Shown piece by piece: positions 30,500 to 46,515 of a DNA stretch of 64,000 nt. The translations under genes and the position numbers were made by a program. Numbering within the stretch: position 1 is the stretch's first letter; each line of letters begins with the position of its first letter. The stretch comes from an uncultured Tenacibaculum sp. (GTDB lineage: Bacteria; Bacteroidota; Bacteroidia; Flavobacteriales; Flavobacteriaceae), in assembly GCA_947492185.1 (NCBI GenBank), contig CANLMR010000004.1, forward strand, positions 124,001-188,000, in the 5' to 3' direction. The notes under the pieces are model-generated. The model did no database searches. It was not told the DNA's origin and saw only the letters and a program-made list of their open reading frames with translations.

Positions 30500-30507
30500 T
30501 ATTTTTG
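30500..30507 (+). promoter_or_regulatory. -7 promoter element of the ThiF-like gene
   Basis: TATTTTTG (TAnnTTTG). The gene's ATG at 30523 lies 15 bases downstream. The in-frame TTG at 30505 falls inside this element and is therefore unlikely to be the start. Confidence 0.55.
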
Positions 30508-30522
30508 ATAAAAACTTTTTTG

Positions 30523-31278
30523 ATGGAAACAAGATACATTAGAAATAGAATATACTTATCTCAAAATGAACAAGAGAAAATTAAAAATATTCCAATCCTT
30601 TTAGGAGGTTCAGGAATAGGTAGTGTTATAGCCGAATGTGCATTACGTTTAGGTTTTGAAAACATTACAATTATTGATGGAGATCAAGTAGAATTATCTA
30701 ATTTAAACCGTCAGAATTATACAATAGATGATATTGAAAAAGACAAAGTAAAAGCACTTCAAGATCGATTACAATCGATAAATCCTAATGCTAATATTAA
30801 TGTATATAATGAGTTTTTAAATTCTGAAAATGTTGATTCTTTTATAAAAAATTATGACATAGCAATTAATGCATTAGATTTTACAACAGATATTCCATTA
30901 AAATTTGATAAACTCTGCCAAAAAAATAATATTACAGTATTACATCCCTATAATTTAGGTTGGGGTGGAGTTGTTGCTGTGATTACGCCTAATGGACTTA
31001 CTTTAGATTCAATAGCTAAACCTAATGAAAAGTTTAATGAAATTCAAATGGTAAAATACATTACTAATTACATGAAATTTTGGGGCGAACCTCAAGAATG
31101 GATTGATAATGTTCTAGATCAATATTTGAATGAGAAGGAGAAGCTTTCTCCTCCTCAATTATCAATAGGTTCTTGGGTAGTAGCTAGTATGTGTGTACAT
31201 ATAATGTTTAATGTTGCTACTGAAAAAGAAATAAAAAAGTTTCCAGAATTTTATTTCTCATCTATTTATGCCGACTAA
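30523..31278 (+). CDS. ThiF/MoeB/E1-like adenylating enzyme
   Basis: 251 residues from the ATG at 30523. It has the E1-superfamily Rossmann core: nucleotide loop LLGGSGIGSVIAE (about residues 25-37), IIDGDQVELSNLNRQNYT (about 47-64, with the Asp and Arg that bind ATP), the conserved lysine in EKDKVKAL, and NALDFTTD. The CxxC zinc pairs of MoeB/ThiF and an obvious catalytic cysteine are missing. It probably adenylates a carboxylate, perhaps a peptide C-terminus or small acid, without thiolation. It is tail-to-tail (four-base overlap) with the PAS-LuxR gene and shares its promoter box with the acyltransferase gene. Confidence 0.8.
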   Translation: METRYIRNRIYLSQNEQEKIKNIPILLGGSGIGSVIAECALRLGFENITIIDGDQVELSNLNRQNYTIDDIEKDKVKALQDRLQSINPNANINVYNEFLNSENVDSFIKNYDIAINALDFTTDIPLKFDKLCQKNNITVLHPYNLGWGGVVAVITPNGLTLDSIAKPNEKFNEIQMVKYITNYMKFWGEPQEWIDNVLDQYLNEKEKLSPPQLSIGSWVVASMCVHIMFNVATEKEIKKFPEFYFSSIYAD

Positions 31279-32036
31279 ATTAATTTGTTATTAGTAGCGT
31301 ATACTATAGCTTCTGATATGTTGGCAACTTCAAGCTTATCAAAGAGTTTTTTTCGATGAAATTTAACTGTATCTGGTGAAACAAAAATAGATTTTGCAAT
31401 ATCATTTATTGTAAATCCTCTTACAGAATATCTAAGTACTTCTTTTTCTCTTGTAGTTAAACTAATCTTTTCTTCTTCTTTCCAATAATCATCTTCAAGG
31501 TTATATTTAAAAATCTTATTTTCTCCTTTTTTATAAACCTTTATGTTACCAGAATTTTGTTCATTTGATAAAGAAATAATACAAATAGCTTTCCATAATT
31601 TACCAGTACGTGTTAAAAACAGGGGTGTGAGCTTTTGATTAATTAGAATCTTCTTACCTTCTTTATTTTTCAAATGAAAATCGTAAGATATAGTGTATTC
31701 TAATCGTTCTTCTACAGGTAGTTGATCATAAAAATCAAATCCAACAGTATTAATTTTTAGTAATAGATCTAAATCTTCTTCAATAACGTATTTAAAATAA
31801 AACGCATATCCCATTTCTTCAACTTCTCCAGGAGTATGACCAGATAAGAATAAAGGATTCTCTGAAACATACTCAAATCCTTTCTTTTCATAATCTATAA
31901 TGTATATGCTTTTATATGTAGTTCTGGCAAACGCTCTAATAGGTGCCAGATAATTTTTAGTTTGATTTATATCCTCTTCAGAAATAGTATTAATACTATT
32001 TTTTAAGGAAAAGAAATCATTAACATTCTTATCCAT
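31275..32036 (-). CDS. PAS-LuxR family transcriptional regulator
   Basis: 253 residues. A PAS-like sensor domain at about 35-165 (YIIDYEKKGFEYVSENPLFL start, then LTPLFLTRTGKLWKAICIISL) and a C-terminal LuxR/GerE helix-turn-helix at about 190-250: LTTREKEVLRYSVRGFTIND, then VSPDTVKFHRKKLFDKLEVA. No receiver domain, so it is more like a ligand-responsive regulator than a two-component response regulator. It is divergent from the acyltransferase gene. The intergenic region carries a perfect inverted pair of 16-bp boxes that are the obvious candidate binding sites. Confidence 0.87.
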   Translation of the reverse strand: MDKNVNDFFSLKNSINTISEEDINQTKNYLAPIRAFARTTYKSIYIIDYEKKGFEYVSENPLFLSGHTPGEVEEMGYAFYFKYVIEEDLDLLLKINTVGFDFYDQLPVEERLEYTISYDFHLKNKEGKKILINQKLTPLFLTRTGKLWKAICIISLSNEQNSGNIKVYKKGENKIFKYNLEDDYWKEEEKISLTTREKEVLRYSVRGFTINDIAKSIFVSPDTVKFHRKKLFDKLEVANISEAIVYATNNKLI

Positions 32037-32204: not shown

Positions 32205-32855
32205 ATGCTACTAGAAAACAATTTTATTAACGAAAACAAAAACAAAATAATGAGTTTAGCCGAATTCGTTGTTTTAGAAAATTACAAACATCATTCTAAT
32301 GGAAGTTTGCCAATTAATTATTATGAAAGTATTGAAGCTTTATATAATGAAGAAATGAATTACATGGATAATTCAGAAGTATTCATCTCAAGAAATGCTT
32401 ACGGTGAAATTTTAGGAACGATTAGAGTTTTAAGATGGAACTACAAAGTTAAGTTGCCTTTAGAAAAAATATTTGGAATTAACCCACTAGATATTACAGG
32501 TAATACAGTGCTAAAATCTATCTGGCACATTGGTCGTTTTGCTATAAAGAAAGATGTAAGAAACATCAATTTACTAAAGAAATTAATGATTCAAGCAATT
32601 GCTCCAATTTGTAAAAACAAAAACTCAATTGCTTTTGCAGAGTGTGATAGTAAATTATTAAGAATAATGCAGGCTATGGGAATTAAAGCTATTGTAATAG
32701 GTGAATCTATAAACTATTTAGGCTCAGAAACTATTCCTGTATGCATTACTTATGAAGGATTAATTGATTTCTATAATAATAACAAGAAGCTATTACTTGA
32801 TACTACAGAAGTTAATACCTACCCGTATAATTTAACTCAAAAGAATTTAGCTTAA
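32205..32855 (+). CDS. LuxI/FeeM-like N-acyltransferase (GNAT fold)
   Basis: 216 residues. The order of motifs resembles autoinducer synthases and N-acyl amino acid synthases: acidic residues early (EEMNYMDNSEVFISRN), GTIRVLRW near residue 64, the IWHIGRFAI block near 105 (compare 'ExSRFAV' in LuxI and FeeM), and INYLGSETIPVCITYEGL near 167. The product may be an acylated amino acid or a related signal; the acyl donor is not evident. It is the first + strand gene after the box promoter and leads into the outer-membrane protein and lanthipeptide genes. A plain GNAT acetyltransferase is the alternative. Confidence 0.65.
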   Translation: MLLENNFINENKNKIMSLAEFVVLENYKHHSNGSLPINYYESIEALYNEEMNYMDNSEVFISRNAYGEILGTIRVLRWNYKVKLPLEKIFGINPLDITGNTVLKSIWHIGRFAIKKDVRNINLLKKLMIQAIAPICKNKNSIAFAECDSKLLRIMQAMGIKAIVIGESINYLGSETIPVCITYEGLIDFYNNNKKLLLDTTEVNTYPYNLTQKNLA

Positions 32856-32892: not shown

Positions 32893-35295
32893 ATGAAAAT
32901 AATTCACTTTATAACAGTTTTATTGCTATGTCTAAATATTGCTCAAGCTCAAACTATAGAAGGAAAAGTTGTTGATTCTAAAGAAGAGCCTATAAGTTTT
33001 GCGAATGTTGTTGCACAACGAGTTTCCGATAATAAAATTGTAGGAGGTGTAGTTACCGATGAAGAAGGAAAATTTAATCTGAAGATTAAATCAGATAATG
33101 AATTTTATATAACAGTAAGTTTTATAGGTTTTGAAAAGAAAACTTTTGATTATCCAGTTTTAAAAGAAAATTATAACCTAGGAACTATAATATTAAAAGA
33201 ACTTGATAATAAGTTAGATGAAGTAGTTGTAGAAGCAAGAAAGCGACTCATTACAAGAAAAAGTGATCGTCTTGTTTTTAACGTAACCCAATCATTGTCT
33301 TCTAGTGGAGGAGATATGTTAGATGCATTGCGTGTAACTCCAGGAATAAAAGTGCAGAATGATGAACTGTTTATGATTGGGAAAGATAATCTAAGAGTAA
33401 TGGTAAATGGTCGTTTACTTAAAATTCCTCAACAAGAAGTATCTAATTTTTTAAGCTCAATATCTGCTGATGATATTAAAAGTATAGAGGTAATCACAAA
33501 TCCTCCAGCTAAGTATGAATCAGAGGGTAATAGCGGACTTATTAATATCATTTATAAAAAAGGTAGAAGAAATTCTTGGAGAAGTAGAATACGTGGAGTT
33601 TATACTCAAGCTACTTATGGAAGAGGAAGTTTAAGTGGTAACTTTAATTATCAAAAAGATAAGTTTTCGTTATCCAGTAATTTATATTACACCAATGGTT
33701 CTAAGTTAATTACTGATACAAATAGGTTTTTCTTTCCAACTGAAACTTGGGAAGGAACATATCCTAGAAGATATTTTAGTGAACCTTCTATTAGTGCACG
33801 ACTATCTTTAGATTATAATTTCACCAATGACTTTCTAATAGGAGCACAGTATTTAACAACTTATGGAAGGTTTAGAACTGTGAATAGAAATGATAGAGTT
33901 AATGTATTTGATAATATTACTAATGCATTATCAAGAACTATAAGAACTACTTCTAATAATTTAGAGGAAACTCCAACTCACTCTTTAAATGTTCATACCG
34001 AGTTTAAAGTTGATAGTATAAGTAAAGTTGAAATTAATTTAGATTATTTCAACTACACAAATGATCAAGAAAGAACATATAACACATTTAGTGAAGTAAA
34101 TAATACAATAACTCCTGGAACTTTGGATATTGGAAACAATATAGGTGATCAAGGTATTGATAATTATTCTTTAAGAATGGATATTGAATCTCCATTGAAA
34201 TGGGCAAAGTTTAGTTATGGAGGTAAACTCTCTTTTACTAAAACTAATAATGCTCTTGCCTTTTTTGATTTAACTTCAGGAACACCTGTTCAAGATGCTA
34301 GTAGAACTGATATGTTCACGTATAAAGAAAATACACAAGCGATTTACTTTTCACTTGAAAAAATGTTAAGTCAACAATGGATAGTTAATGGAGGTTTACG
34401 TTTTGAGAATACACAAACAGAAGGTAATTCAACAAGTTTAAGTCAGATTGATATCAATGACTATAGCAGACTATTTCCAACATTAAATGTTAATTATATA
34501 GCTAATCAAAATAATATATTCTCTTTAGCTTATAATCAAAGAATCAATAGACCTTCATTCGAATTTTTGAATCCATTTGAGAATGTTCAAAATCCTTTTA
34601 CCATTATCAGAGGTAATCCTTTTTTACAACCTTCGTTCTCTGATAACTTATCATTAACTCATATTTATAAACAAAAGCTAGTTAGTTCCTTATATTTTTC
34701 AAAAGTAAGAGATGGATTTCAACAATTAGCTCAAGTAGATCCAGTTACTAACATTCAAGAAATATCACCTCAGAACTATTATGAAACAATAAAAGTAGGA
34801 CTTACAGAATCGTATACATTTTCGAAGTGGAGATGGTGGGAAAGTGTAAATATTCTTGATATTCATTATAGTGATGCTACATCTTTGGTAGATTTCACCA
34901 ATGCAGGTGAGAGCGGTTTCAATACCTATATAGCTACAAATAACAGTTTTGTTTTAGATAGTGAAAAAAGAGTTATGGCTAGTGCTAATTTCTGGTACGC
35001 TTTCCCTGGAGTATATGATATATATACAACTTCTGCTACTTCAAATCTAGATTTAAGTTTAAAGTTCTTTTTCCTGAATAAGGATTTACAATTAGGGCTG
35101 AATGCTTACGATGTTTTTCGAGGTCAAAGAGTGAGGGTCGAAGGAGTTACAAATAATGTAAATGTTTCATTTAGAAATTACTACGACACACAAAGCTTCA
35201 GAATATCATTACTATATAAGTTCGGAAATAAAAAGATCCGAGTTAAGCGTAAAAAATTCGGAAATCAAGACGAAAAAAATAGAACAAAAGACTAA
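32893..35295 (+). CDS. Outer-membrane beta-barrel protein with carboxypeptidase-regulatory-like and plug domains
   Basis: 800 residues. Signal peptide about 1-19. CarboxypepD-reg-like domain about 20-105 (IEGKVVDSKEEPISFANVVA). Plug-like domain about 115-220 (LRVTPGIKVQND, IEVITNPPAKYESEGNSGLI). Large barrel to the C-terminus (OMP_b-brl_3 type). No TonB box is obvious. Position 38 bases after the acyltransferase gene and 93 bases before the precursors suggests a role in the lanthipeptide system, for example peptide passage across the outer membrane or protection. That is inference; such proteins are numerous in flavobacteria. Confidence 0.85.
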   Translation: MKIIHFITVLLLCLNIAQAQTIEGKVVDSKEEPISFANVVAQRVSDNKIVGGVVTDEEGKFNLKIKSDNEFYITVSFIGFEKKTFDYPVLKENYNLGTIILKELDNKLDEVVVEARKRLITRKSDRLVFNVTQSLSSSGGDMLDALRVTPGIKVQNDELFMIGKDNLRVMVNGRLLKIPQQEVSNFLSSISADDIKSIEVITNPPAKYESEGNSGLINIIYKKGRRNSWRSRIRGVYTQATYGRGSLSGNFNYQKDKFSLSSNLYYTNGSKLITDTNRFFFPTETWEGTYPRRYFSEPSISARLSLDYNFTNDFLIGAQYLTTYGRFRTVNRNDRVNVFDNITNALSRTIRTTSNNLEETPTHSLNVHTEFKVDSISKVEINLDYFNYTNDQERTYNTFSEVNNTITPGTLDIGNNIGDQGIDNYSLRMDIESPLKWAKFSYGGKLSFTKTNNALAFFDLTSGTPVQDASRTDMFTYKENTQAIYFSLEKMLSQQWIVNGGLRFENTQTEGNSTSLSQIDINDYSRLFPTLNVNYIANQNNIFSLAYNQRINRPSFEFLNPFENVQNPFTIIRGNPFLQPSFSDNLSLTHIYKQKLVSSLYFSKVRDGFQQLAQVDPVTNIQEISPQNYYETIKVGLTESYTFSKWRWWESVNILDIHYSDATSLVDFTNAGESGFNTYIATNNSFVLDSEKRVMASANFWYAFPGVYDIYTTSATSNLDLSLKFFFLNKDLQLGLNAYDVFRGQRVRVEGVTNNVNVSFRNYYDTQSFRISLLYKFGNKKIRVKRKKFGNQDEKNRTKD

Positions 35296-35388
35296 AATAT
35301 ATTAAAAATATTGTTTGCAAACATAGTCTTAAAAGAGTTTAGGACTTTAAATAAAAACTCATAATCAATAAATTAAAATTTAAATAAA

Positions 35389-35547
35389 ATGAAGAAAATT
35401 AAATTAACTAAAGGGTTACAGATCAACAAAGAAGCAGTAAGCAAATTACAAGAAGATCAAATGCAAGATGTAAAAGGAGGTAAAGCAGCTTTATCTTGTT
35501 TATGGAAATCTTGTAATGGTAGTAGCGAAGAGACAATCGAAAAATAA
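35389..35547 (+). CDS. Class I lanthipeptide precursor 1
   Basis: 52 residues, too short for usual gene callers. The leader (1-31) has KLTKGLQINKEAVSKLQEDQ followed by MQDVKGG, the Bacteroidota double-glycine type leader. The core begins KAALSCLWKSCNG and has an acidic tail SSEETIEK. Ser36, Cys37, Ser41 and Cys42 are the modifiable residues. It differs from copies 2 and 3 at D27, K40 and the tail. The 93 bases upstream hold a GTTTGCAAAC palindrome (35313-35322) but no standard promoter. The gene heads a tandem triplet. Confidence 0.88.
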   Translation: MKKIKLTKGLQINKEAVSKLQEDQMQDVKGGKAALSCLWKSCNGSSEETIEK

Positions 35548-35565
35548 GATTTCATCAAAGCTCAT

Positions 35566-35606
35566 GGGTAAAGAACCCATTATACTATTTATTCTTTACC
35601 CTTTTT
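35566..35606 (+). terminator. Terminator-like hairpin between precursors 1 and 2
   Basis: GGGTAAAGAA (35566-35575) pairs exactly with TTCTTTACCC (35592-35601), followed by five T. An alternative small hairpin, ATGGGT (35564-35569) with ACCCAT (35575-35580), uses the same bases, so the two are mutually exclusive. Confidence 0.65.
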
Positions 35607-35638
35607 CCAATAAATATTCACACTTAAATTTAAATAAA

Positions 35639-35797
35639 ATGAAGAAAATTAAATTAACTAAAGGATTACAGATCAACAAAGAAGCAGTAAGTAAATTACA
35701 AGAAGATCAAATGCAAGAAGTAAAAGGAGGTAAAGCAGCTTTATCTTGTTTATGGAGTTCTTGTAATGGTAAAGAAGAAGATAAGTTAGAAGCTTAA
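35639..35797 (+). CDS. Class I lanthipeptide precursor 2
   Basis: 52 residues starting MKKIKLTKGLQINKEAVSKL. The leader ends VKGG and the core is KAALSCLWSSCNG with tail KEEDKLEA. A longer in-frame reading from upstream is possible, but the three tandem copies share this ATG and its flanking AAATTTAAATAAA. The protein is identical to precursor 3, although six codons differ synonymously. Confidence 0.9.
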   Translation: MKKIKLTKGLQINKEAVSKLQEDQMQEVKGGKAALSCLWSSCNGKEEDKLEA

Positions 35798-35814
35798 TAA
35801 TTTATCAAAAATCT

Positions 35815-35855
35815 GGGTAAAGAACCCATTATACTATTTATTCTTTACCCTTTTT
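35815..35855 (+). terminator. Terminator-like hairpin between precursors 2 and 3
   Basis: GGGTAAAGAA (35815-35824) pairs with TTCTTTACCC (35841-35850), with five T after it. It is the duplicated copy of the hairpin at 35566; the competing small hairpin is one base pair shorter here. Confidence 0.65.
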
Positions 35856-35887
35856 CCAATAAATATTCACACTTAAATTTAAATAAA

Positions 35888-36046
35888 ATGAAGAAAATTA
35901 AATTAACTAAAGGGTTACAGATCAACAAAGAAGCAGTAAGTAAATTACAAGAAGATCAAATGCAAGAAGTAAAAGGAGGTAAGGCAGCATTATCTTGTCT
36001 TTGGAGTTCTTGTAATGGTAAAGAAGAGGATAAGCTAGAAGCTTAA
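35888..36046 (+). CDS. Class I lanthipeptide precursor 3
   Basis: 52 residues, same protein as precursor 2 (leader to VKGG; core KAALSCLWSSCNG; tail KEEDKLEA). The repeat unit of gene plus spacer is 249-250 bp, so genes 1-3 are tandem duplications. All codon differences from copy 2 are silent. Confidence 0.9.
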   Translation: MKKIKLTKGLQINKEAVSKLQEDQMQEVKGGKAALSCLWSSCNGKEEDKLEA

Positions 36047-36048
36047 TC

Positions 36049-36093
36049 AAAAGGATAGGGATAGGGAATGAGTACATTTTCCTTATCCTTTTT
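36049..36093 (+). terminator. Hairpin between precursors 3 and 4
   Basis: AAAAGGATA (36049-36057) pairs with TATCCTTTT (36084-36092), with an inner GGAA/TTCC pairing. The sequence is unrelated to the two upstream spacers but in the same position. Confidence 0.5.
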
Positions 36094-36112
36094 CTTTAAA
36101 AATTAAAAAGAG

Positions 36113-36262
36113 ATGAAAAAAATAAAACTAAACAACAAACTACAAATTCAGAAAGAAGCTGTTGCTAAGCTTCAAGATGAACAATTGAGTGCTGTTAAAG
36201 GTGCTAAAGGAAAACCATTATCATGTTTATGGCATACATGCGGTGGTGGAATAGATAAATAA
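36113..36262 (+). CDS. Class I lanthipeptide precursor 4 (divergent)
   Basis: 49 residues. The leader MKKIKLNNKLQIQKEAVAKL is clearly homologous, but it ends LSAVKGA, a Gly-Ala instead of Gly-Gly cleavage site. The core is KGKPLSCLWHTCGGGIDK: the SCLWx(S/T)C pattern is kept with Thr42 in place of Ser and a glycine-rich end. It may give a second distinct product, for instance a partner peptide. It lies 29 bases before the first LanC-like gene. Confidence 0.87.
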   Translation: MKKIKLNNKLQIQKEAVAKLQDEQLSAVKGAKGKPLSCLWHTCGGGIDK

Positions 36263-36291
36263 AATATTAACTCTACTTTATTAAAATTAAC

Positions 36292-37437
36292 TTGAAAACA
36301 TTAGAAAAAATACAAGATTGTTTACTAGCAAATACCGAATTAAACGGTATTGGAATTAGTAATGGAATTTTAGGAAAATCTTTATTCTACTATTATAATT
36401 ACTTATATACTCAAGATCAACAATGGTTAGAATTATCAGTAAGTTTAATAGAAGAGTCTTTGGAAATGCTTTCAACTGATTATTCAAGTATTTCTCCACA
36501 AAACGATATTATTGAAGCAGGAATTTATCTTAACTTTTTATATAAAAATCAAGTTTTATCTGATGAAGTAGAGTTTATTTTAAATGATTTTGAAGAATTA
36601 ATAGATGAGATTTTTACCACCCGATTAAAAGACGAAAATTTAGATGGCATTACCGGAGTTTTTGCCCCATTACAATTCTATTTATCGTCTGAAAAAAAGT
36701 GTAAAGAAAAATTAGACCAAGTATTTAAGTTAGTAGAACAAAAAGCTATTGAAAATGAAAATCAGGTGTATTGGTTATTTGATTTAAGATCACTTGAAAA
36801 TTCTTATGTAGAATTAGGTTACAATCATGGCCTTGCTGGAGTGATTTCTTTTTTAATTGAATGTTATGGTTATAATGTTAATAAAGAAGAATGTAAGAAT
36901 TTAATTTCAAAAGGGCTTAATTTTTTAGAGAGACATCTTGATAGAGAGGGGACGTGTTGGTTCCCACAAACCGCAAATAAAAATAACAAACTTCAATACC
37001 ACAACTTATCATATGGTGATTTAGGTATAGGTTATACTTTTTATAAGGCTGGAGAAGTATTAAAAAATTCTTATTGGACTTCTTTAGGGATAGAAATCCT
37101 TGAAAATGCTGCAGAATATAAAGATGATAATGAAAGTTATATCAGAGATGCGAATATGATCTACGGAGCGTCAGGTTTATACGCATTTTTCGATATGATG
37201 TATCGTTTAACATCAAAAAATATTTTCAAAGCATCAAAAGATTATTGGTATCTAAAAATCTTAGAGAAAGGAAATAATAATACGGTTTGGGCCGGATATA
37301 ACACATATTATAATGGTATTTATGATTTTGCTCAATTAGGAATTTCTCAAGGAATTCTAGGAATAGGATTAACTCTATTATGCAAAGAATTAGATATCAA
37401 AAATGAATATCTAAACTTTTTAAACTTCAAAAAATGA
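36292..37437 (+). CDS. LanC-like protein lacking the zinc ligands
   Basis: 381 residues from a TTG start; no ATG is available in frame before residue 59. The LanC alpha/alpha barrel repeats are visible, including GYNHGLAGVISFL with the conserved His179. At the zinc sites, the usual WCYGxxG is NLSYGDLG (Ser240) and the usual CHGxSG is MIYGASG (Ile290-Tyr291). All three zinc ligands are therefore replaced. It is unlikely to catalyse thioether formation itself and may be a scaffold, leader-binding or regulatory partner of the next gene. Its end overlaps LanC 2 by four bases (ATGA). Confidence 0.85.
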   Translation: MKTLEKIQDCLLANTELNGIGISNGILGKSLFYYYNYLYTQDQQWLELSVSLIEESLEMLSTDYSSISPQNDIIEAGIYLNFLYKNQVLSDEVEFILNDFEELIDEIFTTRLKDENLDGITGVFAPLQFYLSSEKKCKEKLDQVFKLVEQKAIENENQVYWLFDLRSLENSYVELGYNHGLAGVISFLIECYGYNVNKEECKNLISKGLNFLERHLDREGTCWFPQTANKNNKLQYHNLSYGDLGIGYTFYKAGEVLKNSYWTSLGIEILENAAEYKDDNESYIRDANMIYGASGLYAFFDMMYRLTSKNIFKASKDYWYLKILEKGNNNTVWAGYNTYYNGIYDFAQLGISQGILGIGLTLLCKELDIKNEYLNFLNFKK

Positions 37438-38615
37438 TAACACAAGAAAAAATGACTATAGATAAAATCGTAAATGATTATAACTCAAAAATTTTGTCCT
37501 ATCCAATTAAAGAATTATCAGGGGGTTTAGTTCAAGGTAAATTAGGTGTTCTTTACTATTTGATGTTTGTATACTTAGATACTAAGAAGGTAGTTTACTT
37601 TGACAAAATTACAGATATTCTTATTGATATTTTTAATTCTCTACAAAATCCAGAAGGAAACGATTTATTAAATGATTCTTCTTATGCTGAAGGAATTTCT
37701 GGTTTAGGTTTTGTAATTGCTACATTAATTGAAAATGATTTATTAGATGAAGAGTATAATGAGCAAATTCCTGTTTTAAGTCAGATTGCATATGAATATG
37801 CTTCAAAAATGATTGATATTGATAATTATGATTTTTTACATGGATCAATCGGTATATTATTATTTTTTTTAAAGGTAAAAAATAAAGACTTATTCAATGG
37901 AATAGTTGATAAACTTCATCAAAAAACTAAAGAGTCAGTAATGCTTTTTAGTACAGTTTCGGATAACCCTTATATAAGTGATATTAATTTCGGTTTTCCA
38001 CATGGTTATTTATCTACAATTAAAATATTACATGATGCTAAGAAAGTATTTGGAGAGAATGAAGTATATAATGTAATTATAGATAAATGCATTACTAAAA
38101 TCATGAAACATATTAATACCAGTTACGAAGTAGATGGTATACACATTTTTAAACCCCATAAAGTTTACATAGATGAAGGTAAGTTAATCGAGCATCAAAA
38201 TAATCGTTTAGCATGGTGTAATAGCGATTTAAGCTTGATTTTCTTACTTTCTAAAATGGATTTAGGATCAGAAAATAGTCAATTTAATGAGTTGATAGAA
38301 CTTATAGGAGAGAATGTAATCAAAAGAAAAGACATGAAGGTTACAGGAATAGAAAACCATCATTGGTGTCATGGATCTTCTGGAGTTGCTCAAATGTTTT
38401 CTGAATTGCATAAACTCTTAGGAGAGGATAAATATTTAGATGCAAATAATTACTGGGTAAATAGAACTGTTCAATATTTAAAGGAAGAATTATTGAATGA
38501 CCTTACAGAAAGAGACATGTCTTTATTCTATGGAAAATTAGGAGCATTACTCGTACTTCAATCATATCAAAAGGATTTTCCAATTCAATGGAAAGAAGTC
38601 TTTTTAATCAACTAA
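37434..38615 (+). CDS. Lanthionine cyclase LanC
   Basis: 393 residues. Zinc enzyme adding Cys thiols to dehydroalanine or dehydrobutyrine to close thioether rings. Ligands are in place: AWCNSD (Cys262) and HHWCHGSSG (Cys312, His313), with FPHG (His190) at the active-site position. Barrel repeat turns such as LHGSIGILLFF and FYGKLGALLVLQS are present. It is the only cyclase in the cluster that looks competent. Translationally coupled to the degenerate paralogue upstream and followed ten bases later by the flavin oxidoreductase. Confidence 0.9.
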   Translation: MITQEKMTIDKIVNDYNSKILSYPIKELSGGLVQGKLGVLYYLMFVYLDTKKVVYFDKITDILIDIFNSLQNPEGNDLLNDSSYAEGISGLGFVIATLIENDLLDEEYNEQIPVLSQIAYEYASKMIDIDNYDFLHGSIGILLFFLKVKNKDLFNGIVDKLHQKTKESVMLFSTVSDNPYISDINFGFPHGYLSTIKILHDAKKVFGENEVYNVIIDKCITKIMKHINTSYEVDGIHIFKPHKVYIDEGKLIEHQNNRLAWCNSDLSLIFLLSKMDLGSENSQFNELIELIGENVIKRKDMKVTGIENHHWCHGSSGVAQMFSELHKLLGEDKYLDANNYWVNRTVQYLKEELLNDLTERDMSLFYGKLGALLVLQSYQKDFPIQWKEVFLIN

Positions 38616-38625
38616 AAAACAAAAC

Positions 38626-39579
38626 ATGGAAAATATTAAAATAGGTCTTATTGATTTAGGTCAAAGAGACGATGCAACAAGTTTAGAAATTGTAGAACAA
38701 TTAATTGAATATGCAGTAGAGGCAGATTCAGCAGGGTTTAATAGGTTTTGGTTAGCAGAACATCATTATGCACATGTTAAAAATCATCCATATACAAATC
38801 CAGATATTTTATTACCAATCTTAGCTGGAATGACAGATCAAATTAAAGTTGGTTCAGCTGGGGTTTCATTATCACTTTATTCTCCTTACACGGTTACTTG
38901 CAATTACAAGCTATTATCTAATTTATATCCTAATAGAATCGATTTAGGTTTATCAAAAGGCTTACCAGATAGTAAAAAGATTGCAGAATTAGCACATCCT
39001 GAATTAACAAGGAAAACAAACAGAGAAATTTTTAATAATAATCTAGAAGTTATTTCTGATTTATTAGAAAATGAAGATGATAATTTAAATAATAATCAAA
39101 TATTAATTCCACCATATAAAGGAACAAAACCAAAACTATGGTATTTATCTACTTCTTTTAATAGTTATAAGGAAGCTATAAAATATAAAACAAATTACTG
39201 TGTTTCTCTTTTTCACAATTTCGGACAATCAAAGGAATTTGATAAACAACAAATAGATTCTTTTAAACAAGAGTATTATGCTGCTCATGGAGAATATCCT
39301 AAGATAGTGATTTCACTAGCTTTTTATATGGCTGAAACCATAGAAGAAGCGCAATTTAAAGTAAATGAAATGACTGAATATGCTAGAAGTCTTTCCTCTG
39401 AAGCTTTTATAATTGAACCAGTTACTGCAGACGAATTAAAAGAAATAACTCAAAAATATTACGATGAATATGGTTTAGATGAGTTTGTGTTTTATGATGT
39501 TGCTGGAACACATAAAGAAAAACTTCATAATCTTCATGCTATTGCAGAAAAATTCCAAATGTTAACACCAGTATATTAA
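38626..39579 (+). CDS. Luciferase-like (LLM) flavin-dependent oxidoreductase
   Basis: 317 residues. TIM-barrel monooxygenase family: the N-terminal IKIGLIDLGQRDDATSLEI, the FWLAEHHYAHVKNHPYTNPD signature near residue 42, VGSAGVSLSLYSPYTV near 85 and RIDLGLSKG near 105. In RiPP clusters, luciferase-like flavoenzymes (LanJ_C group) are known to reduce dehydroalanine or dehydrobutyrine to D-amino acids, and that is the most economical role here. An oxidation of Cys or Trp in the core is the alternative. Embedded in the lan operon between lanC and lanB. Confidence 0.83.
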   Translation: MENIKIGLIDLGQRDDATSLEIVEQLIEYAVEADSAGFNRFWLAEHHYAHVKNHPYTNPDILLPILAGMTDQIKVGSAGVSLSLYSPYTVTCNYKLLSNLYPNRIDLGLSKGLPDSKKIAELAHPELTRKTNREIFNNNLEVISDLLENEDDNLNNNQILIPPYKGTKPKLWYLSTSFNSYKEAIKYKTNYCVSLFHNFGQSKEFDKQQIDSFKQEYYAAHGEYPKIVISLAFYMAETIEEAQFKVNEMTEYARSLSSEAFIIEPVTADELKEITQKYYDEYGLDEFVFYDVAGTHKEKLHNLHAIAEKFQMLTPVY

Positions 39580-39586
39580 AATAAGT

Positions 39587-42500
39587 ATGGAAAACTTCAA
39601 TCATATCAATCGTTTTATTTTAAGAACACCATATAACAGTGTTAATCAGTTTTCAGAACTTCCTACCACTTCTGAAGAAACAATCGAGTTTGTAAAAGAT
39701 TTGTTTAATGATGAAGTTTTCAAAGAATCTGTTTTTTTGGCGTCTCCAGATTTATTTTATGAATGGAAAAGATCTATTTCTGATGGAGAATTAAGTGCTG
39801 AAAAACAATTAAAATTAGCGTTATCCATTATCAAGTATTATATAAGATCTACAACTAGATGTACTCCATTCGGATTGTTCTCTGGTTATACTGAAATACT
39901 TCATAAACAAGAGAGTCAAAAACCAGGTTTAGAAAGGTTTACTGGGTTGGATTTAGATTTTCTTTATACACTATTACATAAATTAAATAAAGAAGTAACT
40001 GTAAGAAATATTGTAAAATTTTCTCCTAATTCATCTATTTACAGCTTAGGGGAAAATTATAGATATGCTGAATACACTTTAATTAAAAATAAAAGATCGT
40101 ACACATTAGTAGAAATAGAAGCTAATGAGGTTTTAGAATTAATTTATAAGGTAACACAAAAAGAAGCACAAAGCTTAAGTCAATTAGTAGAGTTATTAGT
40201 CTACTCAATAGAAAATATTACAGAGGATGAAGTAATAGTTTATATTAACTCATTAATAGACGCACAGTTTTTAGTTAGTGATTTAGATATTTGTATCAAT
40301 GGAAATTCTCCATTAGAACAAATTGTTACTTATTTCGAAACAAACGTTATAAACAAAACGGATAACCCAGAACTATTAAGTTATTATCAATTACTTCTAA
40401 AGTTAAAAGAGAAATTAGCAAATTTAGATACTACTATTGTTGGGAATCCAATTTCTGTTTATGAAGAGATTTTTTCAATAGCGAAAGAATTTAATTTTTC
40501 ATTCGATAAAAAATACTTTATAAACACGAACTTAAGAAAGAATTTAACAAAAGAGAATTACGATTTAACTTCTAAAGAAATCTCCGATATTAAAAAAGCT
40601 ATAACCGCTTTATCTCGATTTAGTACTAAAAAAGAAAATATAAACCTTAACGAATTCAAAAAGTCCTTTTATAAAAGATACGAAGATAAAGAGGTACCAT
40701 TATGTATTGCGTTAGATAATGAAATTGGTGTAGGGTATTTACAAGAACATTCAGACGCTAGTAACTTTTCTTCTTTAATAGATGATATAAAACTTAAAGG
40801 TCATGAATCAGAAGAAATAAAACTTACTTACCATAATAAAATTCATAAATTTTGGACAGACCAACTCTCTAGAGCAAGAAATAAGAATGAAAAAGTAATT
40901 GATCTAAAAACAATCAACTTATCTGATTTTCCAATTAATACTGGCCAATTGTCTCAGTCATTTTATACAATGATTAATAAGTATAAAGAAAATGTTTCTA
41001 TTGAAGTTGTTGGTGGTACGGGAGCATTAAATTTAATAGGTAGATTCTCAAGTTTAGATGCTTCATTAACTGATTTGTTTAATGAAGTAAATATAAAAGA
41101 GGAAATAGAAGGAGATGAAGTTCTTGTTGAATTATTACATGTTCCAGATAATAGATCAGGAAATATATTACTAAGAAATATAGATCGCAAACATGAAATT
41201 ACTTTTTTAACTAAAGGAAGTAATAACGCAAAACATATATCAATAGATGATATTTATGTGAGTGTAAAGCAAAACAAAATTGTTTTACGTAGCAAAACTT
41301 TAAATAAGAAGATTAAAGTTGTAAATACTACGGCACATAATTTTCAATACAATGCACTTCCTATATATCAGTTTTTAGGAGAGCTACAAATGCAAGATAG
41401 CAATCCATCATTAAGTTTAAATTTAGGGAGTGTTAACTACAAAACATTTAAATCTAGACCAAGAATTTCTTATGGGAGTATTATTCTTTCACCAGCAAAA
41501 TGGAATTTCTCTATTGAAGAAATATCTCACTGCTTTGAAAATAATCAGTTGAATAATTCTAAACTAAAAGACTTTTTAAAACAACAAGAAATACCAAGAT
41601 ATGTATGTATAAGGGAACAACAAGATCATACGTTTTGGATTGATTTAGAAAATGATTTTATGTATACTTTTTTAGCAGAAAGTATAAAGAAGAAAAAACA
41701 ATTAATATTAGAAGAACTTCTTGTTGATTCTATAAATGCTGAAGAAGAAGTTTATAATTCAGAATATATTATTCCATTTTTTAAAGAGAATAAAAAAACA
41801 AGAAAAGTTTCTTTTCCAAAGATTTCTCAAAAAAGAACTTTCACACCAGGTGAAGAGTGGTTGTATTTTAAATTATATACAGGAACTAAAACAGGAGGTA
41901 AAGTTTTACAAGATGTAATAGATCCTTTAGTTCATAATTTAAAAGAAAACGGATTAATAGAGAAATGGCATTTTATCAGATTCAGAGATCCAGATTTTCA
42001 TATAAGATTACGCTTTTTAGTAAAAGACAATGCAGTTAATAATAGTAAAATTATTGAAAAATTAAATCAAGCTATTAAATCTTACGTAGACACTTATGCA
42101 ATATGGAAGGTAGAAATATCTACTTATAATCGCGAGTTAGAAAGATATGGCGATGAATTGATTATACCTTCAGAATCTGTATTTCATAGTGATAGTGATT
42201 TAGTTCTCAAGATATTAAATCTTGCCAAAAACACAAGTTCAGAAGTTTCTTGGTTACCAATCTTAAAAACCATAGATAACTTATATGAAATACATCAATT
42301 CTCTTTAGAAGAAAAAGCAAACCATATCAATGGATTGTATGATGCCTTTTTAAAAGAATTCAATGGAGATAAAACTCTAAAAAAGCAAATAGAAGCTAAG
42401 TTTAGAAAGTTTAAAAATGATATAGCTTTCTTAATGGAAGATTCATCCACTAAAATTGCTGAGGTGTTAGAAAATCACAATGAAAAACTATATAAAGATT

Positions 42501-42694
42501 TAGGAGAAAATAGTAATCAATTAATTAAGCAAATGAAATCTAATATAACTAGCTATATCCATATGCATGTGAATAGATTTTCAATTACAAATCCAAGAAT
42601 GCATGAATTGGTGTTTTATGGATTACTATCAAAATATTATAAAATGAGACTAGGAAAAGAAAAGCATGTTCAACCAAAAGCACTAACAATATGA
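39587..42694 (+). CDS. Lantibiotic dehydratase LanB (full length)
   Basis: 1035 residues. Glutamyl-tRNA-dependent dehydratase that turns Ser and Thr of the core into Dha and Dhb. The N-terminal glutamylation domain begins FILRTPYNSVNQFSEL and has RCTPFGLFSGYTE near residue 96. The C-terminal elimination (SpaB_C) domain starts near 755 with EEWLYFKLYTG, then WHFIRFRDPDFHIRLRFL. Both domains are in one chain, unlike the split LanB of the related pinensin system as I recall it. The last codon overlaps the exporter start (ATGA). Confidence 0.93.
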   Translation: MENFNHINRFILRTPYNSVNQFSELPTTSEETIEFVKDLFNDEVFKESVFLASPDLFYEWKRSISDGELSAEKQLKLALSIIKYYIRSTTRCTPFGLFSGYTEILHKQESQKPGLERFTGLDLDFLYTLLHKLNKEVTVRNIVKFSPNSSIYSLGENYRYAEYTLIKNKRSYTLVEIEANEVLELIYKVTQKEAQSLSQLVELLVYSIENITEDEVIVYINSLIDAQFLVSDLDICINGNSPLEQIVTYFETNVINKTDNPELLSYYQLLLKLKEKLANLDTTIVGNPISVYEEIFSIAKEFNFSFDKKYFINTNLRKNLTKENYDLTSKEISDIKKAITALSRFSTKKENINLNEFKKSFYKRYEDKEVPLCIALDNEIGVGYLQEHSDASNFSSLIDDIKLKGHESEEIKLTYHNKIHKFWTDQLSRARNKNEKVIDLKTINLSDFPINTGQLSQSFYTMINKYKENVSIEVVGGTGALNLIGRFSSLDASLTDLFNEVNIKEEIEGDEVLVELLHVPDNRSGNILLRNIDRKHEITFLTKGSNNAKHISIDDIYVSVKQNKIVLRSKTLNKKIKVVNTTAHNFQYNALPIYQFLGELQMQDSNPSLSLNLGSVNYKTFKSRPRISYGSIILSPAKWNFSIEEISHCFENNQLNNSKLKDFLKQQEIPRYVCIREQQDHTFWIDLENDFMYTFLAESIKKKKQLILEELLVDSINAEEEVYNSEYIIPFFKENKKTRKVSFPKISQKRTFTPGEEWLYFKLYTGTKTGGKVLQDVIDPLVHNLKENGLIEKWHFIRFRDPDFHIRLRFLVKDNAVNNSKIIEKLNQAIKSYVDTYAIWKVEISTYNRELERYGDELIIPSESVFHSDSDLVLKILNLAKNTSSEVSWLPILKTIDNLYEIHQFSLEEKANHINGLYDAFLKEFNGDKTLKKQIEAKFRKFKNDIAFLMEDSSTKIAEVLENHNEKLYKDLGENSNQLIKQMKSNITSYIHMHVNRFSITNPRMHELVFYGLLSKYYKMRLGKEKHVQPKALTI

Positions 42695-44925
42695 AATTTA
42701 TACCGCAACACGATCAAATGGATTGTGGTCCTGCTTGTATTGCAATGATCACAAAAATGTATGGAAAAGATTATCCATTACAATATTTAAGAGATGTTTC
42801 TCATATATCTAAAGAAGGTGTAAGTTTAATGAGCATCTCAGATGCTGCAGAAAAAATAGGTTTTGAAACATATCCAAGTTTATTGTCTATTGATGTATTA
42901 TTAGAAGAAGGAACATTACCATGTATTCTTCATTGGAATAAAAATCATTTCGTAGTACTTCATGATGTGAAGAAAAATATTTTTACTGGAAAAAATAGTT
43001 TTAAAGTAGCAGATCCGTCACATGGTTTAATAACGTTATCTGAAGAAGAATTTGCAAAATCATGGTGTTCTCAAGAAGATAAAGGTATTGTATTATTTCT
43101 TTCTCCAACAGAAAAGTTTGACGAGATAGAACCACCAAAAATGAATAAGCTTACCATTTCATATTTGTTAAATTATTTAAAGCCATTTAAAAAGCAGGTT
43201 GCTTTTATGTTTAGTATGCTTTTAATTGGAAGTTTATTAACATTAGTATTTCCTTTTTTAACTCAAAATCTTATTGATAAAGGAGTTACAGTAGGAGATA
43301 TGAATATGATTACACTAATTCTTTTAGCTCAACTGGGACTTTTTCTAGGAGCAATAACTATACAAATTATACGGAATTCACTCACATTGTATGTGGGTAC
43401 TAAACTGAGTATAAACATTATCTCAGATTTTTTAAAGAAAACTCTTCAACTACCCATTAAGTTTTTTGATTCTAAAATGGTAGGAGATTTTAATCAACGA
43501 ATTAATGATAACGAGCGTATTGAAGAGTTTTTAACGTCTCAAAGTCTAGTTACTGTATTTTCAATAATGACCTTCTCTGTGTTCTTTGGGGTTTTATGGT
43601 ACTATGATTTCACAATACTTGCTGTGTATTTAGCATTAACAGTATTTTCTATAGGATGGTCTTACTATTTCTTAAGGAAAAGAAGAATGTTAGATTACTT
43701 TAAATTTCAACAGAGAGCAGAAAACCAAGACTCCATTCTAGAAATTATTAATGGAGTTTCTGAAATGAAGTTAAATCAGTTTGAAGAGTTTAAACGTAAA
43801 GCTTGGGTTAAAATTCAAAATAAGCTGTTTAAAACCAACTTAAGAATCTTAAAAATTGATCAGATTCAAGTTTCTGGTTATGAATTCTTAAATCAACTAA
43901 AAAACATCTTAGTTACGTTTTTAGCTGCAATGTATGTTGTAAAAGGACAAATGACTTTAGGAGAGTTATTAAGTATCTCTTATATAATAGGTCAAATGAA
44001 TTCTCCTGTGAATCAATTAATAGATTTCTTTAGATCTTTACAAGATGCAAAATTGAGCTTAGAACGTCTAAATGAAGTGCAGCATCATCCTGAGGAAGAA
44101 ACTGTATTTATAGATGAAAAAGGAGAAGAATCTCCGATGAGAACTTTAAAAATTGGTGAGAGTATTTTCGTTAATAATGGAATTCAAAAAGGAATTCGAT
44201 TTAAAAATTTATCATTTCAATACGAAGGCCCTAAATCTCCTTTTATTCTTAAAGATATTAGTATGTTAATTCCCGAAGGAAAAGTAACAGCTATAGTAGG
44301 AGCGAGTGGTAGTGGTAAAACAACATTGTTAAAGTTATTACTTCGTTTTTATGATCCGACATTGGGAACCATACATTATAATTATGACGATATTTTAAGT
44401 TTATCACCTAGAAGTATTAGAGAAAATTGTGGAGTAGTAATGCAGGATGGTTATATATTTTCTGATACAATAGAAAGAAATATAGCAACAGGAGATGAAG
44501 AAATAAATTATGAAAAATTAATAAATGCGGTTAGGATTGCTAATATTGAAGAGTATATTATGTCTTTACCATTACAGTTGAAAACAAAAATTGGTGCTGC
44601 TGGAAATGGAATCTCAGGAGGACAAAAGCAACGAATTTTAATTGCCAGAGCAGTATATAAAAACCCGCATTACATATTTTTTGATGAAGCAACAAGTGCA
44701 TTAGATGCCGAAAACGAAAAAATAATTCATGACAATTTGCAAGAATTTTTTAAAGATAGAACAGCAGTTGTTATCGCTCATAGACTTTCAACTGTAAAAA
44801 ATGCAGATCAAATCATTGTACTTAAAAATGGAGAGATAGTAGAGCATGGTAATCATAAAACACTAGTAGAAAATAAAGCAGACTATTTTAATTTGGTAAA
44901 AAACCAATTAGAATTAGGAAATTAA
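42691..44925 (+). CDS. Peptidase-containing ABC transporter (C39, LanT-like)
   Basis: 744 residues. The N-terminal C39 peptidase (about 1-130) has the catalytic Cys12 in QMDCGPAC and the His in NKNHFVVLHDV, cleaving after Gly-Gly or Gly-Ala. A six-helix membrane domain follows (about 165-440). The nucleotide-binding domain (about 500-740) has Walker A VGASGSGKTTLL, signature ISGGQKQRI and Walker B IFFDEATSALD. It removes the leader and exports the peptide across the inner membrane. No HlyD adaptor or TolC-like protein accompanies it in the cluster. Last gene of the operon, with a terminator 38 bases later. Confidence 0.93.
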   Translation: MKFIPQHDQMDCGPACIAMITKMYGKDYPLQYLRDVSHISKEGVSLMSISDAAEKIGFETYPSLLSIDVLLEEGTLPCILHWNKNHFVVLHDVKKNIFTGKNSFKVADPSHGLITLSEEEFAKSWCSQEDKGIVLFLSPTEKFDEIEPPKMNKLTISYLLNYLKPFKKQVAFMFSMLLIGSLLTLVFPFLTQNLIDKGVTVGDMNMITLILLAQLGLFLGAITIQIIRNSLTLYVGTKLSINIISDFLKKTLQLPIKFFDSKMVGDFNQRINDNERIEEFLTSQSLVTVFSIMTFSVFFGVLWYYDFTILAVYLALTVFSIGWSYYFLRKRRMLDYFKFQQRAENQDSILEIINGVSEMKLNQFEEFKRKAWVKIQNKLFKTNLRILKIDQIQVSGYEFLNQLKNILVTFLAAMYVVKGQMTLGELLSISYIIGQMNSPVNQLIDFFRSLQDAKLSLERLNEVQHHPEEETVFIDEKGEESPMRTLKIGESIFVNNGIQKGIRFKNLSFQYEGPKSPFILKDISMLIPEGKVTAIVGASGSGKTTLLKLLLRFYDPTLGTIHYNYDDILSLSPRSIRENCGVVMQDGYIFSDTIERNIATGDEEINYEKLINAVRIANIEEYIMSLPLQLKTKIGAAGNGISGGQKQRILIARAVYKNPHYIFFDEATSALDAENEKIIHDNLQEFFKDRTAVVIAHRLSTVKNADQIIVLKNGEIVEHGNHKTLVENKADYFNLVKNQLELGN

Positions 44926-45072: not shown

Positions 45073-46515
45073 ATGAAAAATAACTTCGATATGTCTTTAG
45101 AAGACATGAAGTCTTATGGATATAAAATAGTTGATTTAATTGCTGAACATTGGGATACAATTCATACTAAAAAACCTTTTGCTGAGCCAAAAACAAGAAA
45201 CGATTTAGATCAAGTTTTTCTACAAGAAGCTCCAGAACAACCAATGGATTCTGAAAAAGTTTTAGATTTCATTGTAGAGAATGTATTGCCAAATAGTACG
45301 TATACGTCTCATCCAAAATTTTATTCGTTTGTACCTGGTCCTAGTAACTTTATAAGTACAATGGCAGATACTTTAGCTACTGGTTTCAATATTTTCTCTG
45401 GAGGTTGGTTAGTATCTTCAGCTGCTGCAGAATTAGAAATTGTAACTATTAACTGGTTATTGAATATGTATAATTTCCCAGTTAAAAAAGGTGGTGGAAT
45501 TTTTACTAGTGGAGGTTCAATGGCAAATTTAACAGCTATAGTAACTGCAAGACGACTTAAATGCGGAGATGATTTCTCAAAAGCGGTAATTTATTTATCA
45601 GATCAAGCACATTCATCTAATATTAAGGCAATTCGAATTTTAGGTTTTAGAAAAGAACAAATTAGAATTATTCCAACTGATTTTGAATTTAGAATTGGAA
45701 TTAACAAATTAAAAAATGCGATTGCTAAAGATAAGTTAGAAGGTTTACAACCATTTTGTTTTATTGCCAATGCCGGAACTACTAACACAGGAACTGTAGA
45801 TCCACTTCATGAAATTGCAGACATTTGTGAAGATGAGAATATTTGGTTGCACGTTGATGGAGCTTATGGAGGTGCGGCAATCTTATCAAATAAAGGTCAA
45901 AGAATGTTACGTGGAATAGAACGAGCAGATTCTTTAACTGTAGATCCTCATAAGTGGTTTTTCCAACCGTATGAAATTGGTTGTTTATTAGTGAAAGATG
46001 CTTCTTGGTTAAGCGGAACTTTTAGTGAAAAACCAGAGTATTTAAGAGATGTAGAAGGAAATGAATCTGAAATTAATTTCTATGATTATGGAGTACAGTT
46101 AACCAGACGTTTAAGAGCTTTAAAGTTCTATACTTCTATTAAAACTTATGGTTTAGAAAGGTTTAGAAATGCAGTTACTTATAATATAGAATTAACAGAA
46201 GAAGTTGAAAATTATTTAAGAAAAAGTAAAGTATGGGAAGTTGTTTCTCCGGCTACTTTGGCTGTAATTAATTTTAGATATCACTCAATTAATGAAAATC
46301 TAGCGGAAAGTGTTATTGATGAATTAAATCAACGTATTTCTAAAAGAGTAATGGAATCAAGGGAAGCTGTTTTTGTAACAACAATATTAAATAAGCAAAT
46401 TGTACTAAGAATGTGTTTAATTAACCCTAAAACAACAATGGAAGATGTATTAGATACATTGAATACTTGTGAAAAGTATGGTGCTGAAATCTTAGAAGTA
46501 TTAAAAGCAAAATAA
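45073..46515 (+). CDS. Group II PLP-dependent amino acid decarboxylase
   Basis: 480 residues. Family of aromatic amino acid, histidine and glutamate decarboxylases. Features: YTSHPKFYSFVPG near residue 75, GGGIFTSGGSMANLTAI near 140, the HVDGAYGGAAIL PLP-pairing Asp near 263, and TVDPHKWFFQPYEIG with the PLP lysine near 297. The substrate cannot be set from sequence, but the overall pattern is closest to aromatic-L-amino-acid decarboxylases. It has its own promoter and terminator, so it is probably not part of the lanthipeptide pathway despite being next to it. Confidence 0.88.
   Translation: MKNNFDMSLEDMKSYGYKIVDLIAEHWDTIHTKKPFAEPKTRNDLDQVFLQEAPEQPMDSEKVLDFIVENVLPNSTYTSHPKFYSFVPGPSNFISTMADTLATGFNIFSGGWLVSSAAAELEIVTINWLLNMYNFPVKKGGGIFTSGGSMANLTAIVTARRLKCGDDFSKAVIYLSDQAHSSNIKAIRILGFRKEQIRIIPTDFEFRIGINKLKNAIAKDKLEGLQPFCFIANAGTTNTGTVDPLHEIADICEDENIWLHVDGAYGGAAILSNKGQRMLRGIERADSLTVDPHKWFFQPYEIGCLLVKDASWLSGTFSEKPEYLRDVEGNESEINFYDYGVQLTRRLRALKFYTSIKTYGLERFRNAVTYNIELTEEVENYLRKSKVWEVVSPATLAVINFRYHSINENLAESVIDELNQRISKRVMESREAVFVTTILNKQIVLRMCLINPKTTMEDVLDTLNTCEKYGAEILEVLKAK

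Follow-up and report, generated by a model that had tools for sequence, protein, structure and literature searches.

In a 64,000-nucleotide window of an uncultured Tenacibaculum sp. (contig CANLMR010000004.1, positions 124,001 to 188,000), we found a Tenacibaculum-like flavobacterial island of 14.7 kb, which we read as a class I lanthipeptide-type cluster whose peptides likely carry two nested thioethers, with two LanC proteins, LanC2 and LanC1, involved in their formation. Taken as a whole, this reading has in our view an even chance of being correct. The four precursor genes are directly followed, with small gaps or none, by those of LanC1, LanC2, a luciferase-like flavin enzyme (LLM), LanB and a C39 exporter, all on the + strand. 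The leaders, LanB, LanC2 and the C39 exporter bear out the original prediction of a four-precursor class I lanthipeptide cluster, and Pfam matches confirm the two LanC-like genes, the flavoenzyme and the C39 exporter that it listed. Its starting point, position 32893, is that of a PF14905 barrel gene, which was left unnamed at the time. It also overlooked that LanC1 has no zinc site and that the cluster reaches upstream to about 30.4 kb, including ThiF-like, LuxR-type and acyltransferase genes.

The precursors are encoded on the + strand at 35389..35547, 35639..35797, 35888..36046 and 36113..36262. All four exceed the cut-off of 22 of the class I lanthipeptide leader model NF038153, with 50.6 bits for precursor 1, 50.4 bits for precursor 3 and 48.2 bits for precursor 4; a genome-wide search with this model listed no fifth precursor beyond these four. 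The core of precursor 1 is KAALSCLWKSCNGSSEETIEK, that of precursor 2 is KAALSCLWSSCNGKEEDKLEA, and precursor 3 is identical in protein sequence to precursor 2. Precursor 4 has the core KGKPLSCLWHTCGGGIDK, and GA replaces GG in its leader. For precursor 2, an in-frame ATG at 35516 is also on the list of open reading frames (ORFs), and 35639 was taken as the start in line with the other precursors. When aligned, the four agree in L-S-C-L-W and in the second Cys, which is preceded by S or T, giving a shared core of L-S-C-L-W-x-(S/T)-C under a common leader. The four short precursors with one leader and an SCLWx(S/T)C core, as initially described, are thus found again in the ORFs at 35389-36262 and in their alignment.

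A precursor profile search, which the original prediction had proposed as a check, recovered related loci. In our genome collection, the four-precursor profile gave eight loci with the core motif kept (two from Tenacibaculum, one from Chryseobacterium paridis, one from another Flavobacteriaceae, two from Psychroserpens and two from Aquimarina), and a single-protein scan of the same collection with LanC2 gave no relative. Among 395 genomes of the order, 24 were matched by a LanC1 profile and 22 by a 34-precursor profile, the window's own precursors being included in the latter. Regions were examined in 18 of the 28 matching genomes other than the window's, which added six clusters in five genomes (L105 with L106, L107, L108, L109, L110 and L111). 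We treated loci L105 and L106 as a single cluster, since each is broken off within a precursor repeat of one genome, with N at the L105 break, which suggests that they belong together. The five genomes holding members were matched at E 1.1e-89 or better by LanC1 and E 8.4e-19 or better by the precursors, and the 10 unexamined genomes more weakly, at E 1.7e-46 or worse and E 5.7e-6 or worse, respectively. In a sample of 397 genomes of the family, no match of the window precursor profile beyond its own genome was better than E 7.2e-5, which marks the cluster as uncommon.

All 15 clusters contain the barrel gene, precursors, LanC1, a second LanC, LanB and the C39 exporter. In 14 of them the LLM has nearly its full length, and L040-L042 have two copies of it. 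LanB is split into two genes in L040-L042, so the single-chain LanB that had been noted holds for the window, where PF04738 and PF14028 lie on one chain, but not in general. At L044, the sole precursor found reads TCRRHSC. A large precursor array was seen elsewhere, on contig 1 of genome G532 (2257057-2260169, inside L119), with at least 17 leader matches in a row, many of them about 180 bp apart; 17 of 52 candidates were scored, and a LanB lies some 4 kb away.

Behind the leader, the motif [ST]-C-x-x-x-[ST]-C is present in all 58 precursors (49 distinct) from the 15 clusters, against 0.275 matches expected per 58 precursors with shuffled cores. Among the 49 distinct precursors, the first hydroxy residue is S in 45 and T in 4, the second is S in 41 and T in 8, and the middle triplet occurs in 29 forms. 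The motif is absent from all 42 Cys-bearing ORFs that resemble precursors and were drawn from other flavobacterial loci; five of these ORFs have the partial motif C-x3-[ST]-C alone. These ORFs are a contrast set rather than a census: they are regular-expression matches over L006-L036 and L112-L124, loci with differing flank lengths, and we excluded ORFs that contain SCLW, which in that range are the window's own precursors, or that lack a Cys behind residue 25. Since four positions are fixed while the triplet varies freely, the pattern suggests that all four fixed residues are used in the product. The Leu-Trp pair, which had been placed at the centre of the topology, is restricted to three Tenacibaculum-type clusters among the 58 precursors, and the 29 triplet forms do not support a central role for it.

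These patterns bear directly on the ring topology. On sequence grounds, two crosslinks, or a disulfide together with two modified hydroxy residues, would fit better than the single Ser36-Cys42 ring initially proposed. That ring, a lanthionine around a free Cys37 and an unmodified Ser41, has in its favour that it is the sole non-adjacent ring of the motif in the usual Ser-before-Cys direction. However, idle residues should drift, whereas position 37 is Cys and position 41 is Ser or Thr in 58 of 58 precursors around a triplet of 29 forms; we disfavour the lone ring because all four residues are invariant, and consider it quite improbable. The accompanying claim that adjacent Ser-Cys pairs are unable to close was too strong, because mersacidin has a bridge that joins adjacent residues. 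Two small rings of this type, Ser36-Cys37 and Ser/Thr41-Cys42, would account for the use of the [ST]C dipeptide twice as a conserved unit, but they would leave the three-residue spacing, fixed in all 58 precursors, unexplained, and seven-membered rings of such kind are rare, which makes this arrangement highly improbable. A labionin was rejected, as the spacing of the core is wrong for it.

With regard to the cyclases, the two LanC proteins of the window differ in their zinc sites. LanC1 (36292..37437, + strand, with a TTG start on the ORF list; PF05147 E 9.4e-26) aligns with LanC proteins along its full length, but S, I and Y replace the zinc ligands C, C and H, and the active-site His is retained. 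Its structural model shows the alpha/alpha toroid fold of LanC with a mean predicted local distance difference test score (pLDDT) of 78; the best match in the PDB is MadC (8byk; template modelling score 0.70 by query length), followed by human LanCLs and NisC, and a sequence search of LanC1 against the PDB gave no match. LanC2 (37434..38615, + strand; PF05147 E 2.1e-28) has the C, C and H ligands plus the active-site His of a zinc LanC, and is most likely the active cyclase of the window cluster. For NisC, a review states that variants at Cys284, Cys330 or His331 lead to an inactive product, and that His212 variants bind zinc without cyclisation (PMC7296275). The His taken as the equivalent of His212 is retained in all 14 aligned LanC1 proteins, which represent 14 of the 15 clusters, LanC1 and the second LanC of L111 having been judged by motif scan only. 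In this alignment, the first zinc position of LanC1 is S, A, L or M, with Cys only in L109, the second is I, F or L and the third is Y, so that both of the latter ligands are lost in 14 of 14.

In a tree of 65 LanCs, one branch (100/99) sets the 15 rows of LanC1 apart from the rest, and LanC2 is another such group (12 rows from 12 clusters, 100/99). In L040-L042, the zinc LanC is drawn from a different tree group than LanC2; since LanC1 is a single group across all 15 clusters, it is the partner that stays constant. LanC1 joins the LanCs of L112, L113, L115 and L117 (19 rows, 100/99), which retain the first zinc Cys and lack the Cys-His pair. If the root falls outside these 19 rows, the loss of the pair would predate LanC1. 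The four loci L112, L113, L115 and L117 are LanB clusters with one LanC per locus, no LLM match and differing cores. Counting the replacements in L040-L042, the second LanC has all zinc ligands in 13 of the 15 clusters, and a LanC2 search of the 397 family genomes gave 23 further LanCs, 23-29% identical, all with both zinc motifs.

Several points weigh against two nested thioethers closed by LanC2 and LanC1. The 58 precursors are related by descent and hence non-independent, even if the contrast of four fixed positions with a free triplet is plain despite this shared descent. An inner Cys37-Ser41 ring would have to close in the unusual reverse direction, with the Cys on the N-terminal side of the Ser. 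LanC1 could have another role, like the zinc-less LanC-like proteins of Bacteroidales. LanC2 of L105 and L107 is without zinc ligands, and no third LanC was found at E <= 1e-5 in these genomes, which are 99-100% complete; zinc-dependent cyclisation therefore cannot hold for the whole family. LanC2 of L108 and L110 keeps the zinc ligands, but Tyr replaces the active-site His. Finally, in Aquimarina sp. RZ0 (L044, 12962-13177), the LLM is only a stump of residues 1-74.

The flavoenzyme is central to a further alternative. The LLM of the window (38626..39579, + strand; PF00296 E 3.3e-20) is MsnO8-like: its closest solved chain is the luciferase-like monooxygenase 4us5 (E 9.3e-21), which we take to be MsnO8, and the E-H-H motif is present in all 17 copies aligned from the related clusters. 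An MsnO8-like enzyme with this motif looks more like an oxygenase than a reductase. In the alternative, LanB would dehydrate Ser36 and Ser/Thr41, the flavoenzyme would reduce these residues in the manner of a LanJC, or they would stay as they are, Cys37 and Cys42 would form a disulfide and the LanCs would be substrate holders. That no zinc LanC was found in two genomes (L105 and L107) speaks for this variant, as do the LLM's wide presence and its doubling in L040-L042. The reductive option is drawn from Walker 2020 (PMC7268733), where, in the portions available, the name LanJC is proposed for LLMs that reduce dehydrated residues. Like a LanJC, which would turn Dha or Dhb into a D-amino acid, the LLM of the window is a PF00296 protein inside a lanthipeptide cluster. 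Against the disulfide stand the second LanC, which in 13 of the 15 clusters has its zinc ligands complete (that of L111 by motif scan), the oxygenase-like character of the enzyme and the absence of an intact LLM from L044, and we regard this variant as unlikely. A literature search found no paper combining lanthipeptides, flavobacteria and luciferase-like monooxygenases.

Returning to the two nested thioethers, gene content, residue patterns and folds were seen directly, and from them we infer the reactions of the following pathway. A hairpin with a U-run trails each of the first three precursors on the + strand, at 35558..35612 (minimum free energy -11.7 kcal/mol), 35808..35862 (-11.7 kcal/mol) and 36043..36098 (-20.5 kcal/mol), and each is more stable than its own shuffles (z -3.77, -3.83 and -3.95, respectively). 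A consensus scan of the same stretch, limited to short loops, gave 2 hits vs 0.2 expected: the one at the first site is a hairpin of smaller size, and the one at the second lies on the - strand. The three hairpins are candidate partial terminators that would favour precursor transcripts, leaving the precursors in excess over the enzymes. LanB (39587..42694, + strand; PF04738 E 7.2e-95 and PF14028 E 1.4e-59; PDB matches 9g04 and NisB 4wd9) has the glutamylation and elimination domains on one chain, and the elimination domains of the 12 unsplit LanBs of the related clusters have R798, H805, R809, E852, R853, H992 and N996 in common, presumably matching residues needed in NisB. LanB would glutamylate and dehydrate both core hydroxy residues. 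Both Cys and both dehydro residues would then be consumed, most likely as two thioethers, and our first choice is an outer Ser36-Cys42 bridge and an inner Cys37-Ser/Thr41 bridge, nested about the variable triplet. LanC2, with its zinc, would close one thioether or more, and LanC1 may close the other ring zinc-free, like class III cyclase domains, or hold the substrate.

The flavoenzyme may then act on a conserved Ser- or Cys-derived site, by oxidation of a thioether or reduction of a dehydro residue. Oxidation is suggested in part by work on actagardine, which reportedly offers a basis for it; in addition, sulfur oxidation of lanthionine crosslinks is listed as a known tailoring step in the available portions of Walker 2020 (PMC7268733). 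The C39 peptidase-ABC exporter (42691..44925, + strand; PF03412, PF00664 and PF00005) would cleave after GG (GA in precursor 4) and export the peptide. The outer-membrane beta-barrel protein (32893..35295, + strand; PF14905 E 4.4e-81), which has a carboxypeptidase-regulatory-like N-terminal domain, is a candidate exit route or receptor, giving passage to the peptide or recognising it; Pfam detected no membrane-fusion protein among the island's ORFs of at least 120 aa. The mature peptides are probably secreted inhibitors or signals. A narrower proposal goes beyond this pathway: the clusters would form a class I branch in which a free-standing zinc-less LanC is dedicated to the [ST]C-x3-[ST]C core and closes a reverse-direction thioether, giving two nested bridges about a hypervariable triplet, also in the two genomes without a zinc LanC. 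We put this forward tentatively and think it rather unlikely.

The limits of the island can be read from its neighbours. Of 30 sampled genus genomes, all have the left neighbour (OstA-like) and 21 the right neighbour, a pyridoxal phosphate (PLP) decarboxylase, and both lay on one contig in 18 genus genomes other than the window's. The distance between match ends is 136-1089 bp in 16 of these and 1788 and 5774 bp in the remaining two, against 14,700 bp in the window. Because the neighbours are close together in other genomes of the genus, we take about 30.4 to 45.07 kb as the inserted unit. In L037 and L038, both from Tenacibaculum, the window's island unit is preceded by the same left neighbour, and in L038 it is also followed by the decarboxylase, which makes a Tenacibaculum the probable carrier of the window's island. 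The PLP decarboxylase (45073-46515) was rejected as a tailoring enzyme, being outside the island and present in 21 of the 30 genus genomes.

The upstream end of the island is occupied by a trio of genes: a ThiF/E1-like adenylyltransferase, probably part of a regulatory module (30505..31278, + strand; PF00899 E 9.9e-37), a LuxR-type regulator with a C-terminal GerE helix-turn-helix (31275..32036, - strand; PF00196 E 3e-17) and a FeeM/LuxI-like acyltransferase of the GNAT type (32205..32855, + strand; PF21926 E 7.3e-6). The acyltransferase gene is divergent from the LuxR gene, to which the ThiF-like gene is convergent. Proteins 56-97% identical to the window LuxR protein occur in L037-L039, L106-L108, L110, L111 and L113. 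The acyltransferase profile matched 11 of 196 genomes of the order, and seven additional loci (L137-L143) were taken from six of these 11. In six of the seven, LuxR adjoins the acyltransferase, and ThiF lies in the same stretch in five (L137, L138, L140, about 9 kb off, L142 and L143) and was not seen in L139 and L141. Their neighbours include a very long nonribosomal peptide synthetase (NRPS)-like ORF (L139) and other exporter genes (L138, L140 and L141), and the precursor pattern found no precursor of the [ST]Cx3[ST]C family in any of the seven. Over 16 loci (nine on the lanthipeptide side, including the window, plus these seven), ThiF is present in 14 and LuxR in 15. Since it also adjoins NRPS-like and other exporter clusters, the trio is not specific to this peptide. 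The ThiF/LuxR/LuxI-like module also stands at L106-L108, L110, L111, L113 and L137-L142, which makes it portable across cluster types.

In the acyltransferase, no LuxI family profile exceeded its cut-off: FeeM PF21926 reached 26.3 bits (cut-off 27) and TIGR03694 27.9 bits (cut-off 112). Its profile had no match among PDB sequences, and no autoinducer-binding domain was matched in the window LuxR protein. The model of the acyltransferase is poor (mean pLDDT 54); with it, the first seven Foldseek rows are acyl-homoserine lactone (AHL) synthases, the later rows are other acetyltransferases, and EsaI and FeeM rank 10 and 11. That the trio could be an acyl-signal-making circuit of Bacteroidota is a fair guess, no more. 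We also considered the GNAT protein as a peptide acyltransferase: given the NRPS-like ORF and other exporters beside its homologues, a regulatory role is likelier, if not certain.

If the zinc-less LanC makes rings, class I cyclisation would not require zinc, and the fixed frame with its free triplet of 29 forms would amount to a natural scaffold for loops that are short and constrained. Should it make none, the family would be a clean case of a retained pseudo-cyclase. The ThiF/LuxR/LuxI-like trio, which also lies beside unrelated clusters, offers an entry point to small-molecule signalling in Bacteroidota.

Among known systems, the trio resembles LuxI/LuxR quorum-sensing pairs in that the acyltransferase gene is divergent from a LuxR-type gene and that its weak model lies near AHL synthases and FeeM; in contrast to these pairs, it has no LuxI family or autoinducer-binding match, and a ThiF-like gene is present in 14 of 16 loci. 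The window cluster shares with the nisin system a LanB that aligns with NisB over residues 33-1016 and a LanC, LanC2, with C, C and H, but has another leader family, a C39 exporter, a second, zinc-less LanC and a core with one pair of [ST]C dipeptides. LanC1 differs from class III LanKC cyclase domains in being free-standing beside LanB, and the core spacing is not the labionin pattern. Like LanC1, those domains have a LanC fold without zinc ligands (PMC7296275, PMC7268733), and a review describes them as functioning without zinc (PMC7296275).

Bacteroidetes class I lanthipeptides with LxLxKx5L leaders, GG sites and a C39 partner have been described (Walker 2020, PMC7268733), and the window has in common with them the leader family (NF038153), LanB and LanC, the GG site and the C39 exporter. 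Nevertheless, the text of that paper compared here, which is apart from its supplements, names no [ST]Cx3[ST]C core and no zinc-less class I LanC. LanC-like proteins without the zinc motif, C...CH, are also Bacteroidota LanC homologues like LanC1; the available parts of PMC10352776 report them in Bacteroidales RiPP (ribosomally synthesised and post-translationally modified peptide) loci and judge them unlikely to be lanthipeptide cyclases, so that a zinc-less pseudo-cyclase is in itself no novelty. LanB is missing from those loci, most of which have radical SAM enzymes, whereas LanC1 always occurs with LanB and lanthipeptide-type precursors. The original view of the core as unlike known lanthipeptides agrees with our finding no counterpart in the open-licence lanthipeptide literature, supplements aside, though this does not prove that none exists. 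Systems of this kind are known, and a family with this motif and a constant zinc-less LanC is, as far as our searches show, undescribed in that literature. As far as seen, what is new is the constant pairing of a zinc-less LanC with LanB and the [ST]Cx3[ST]C core.

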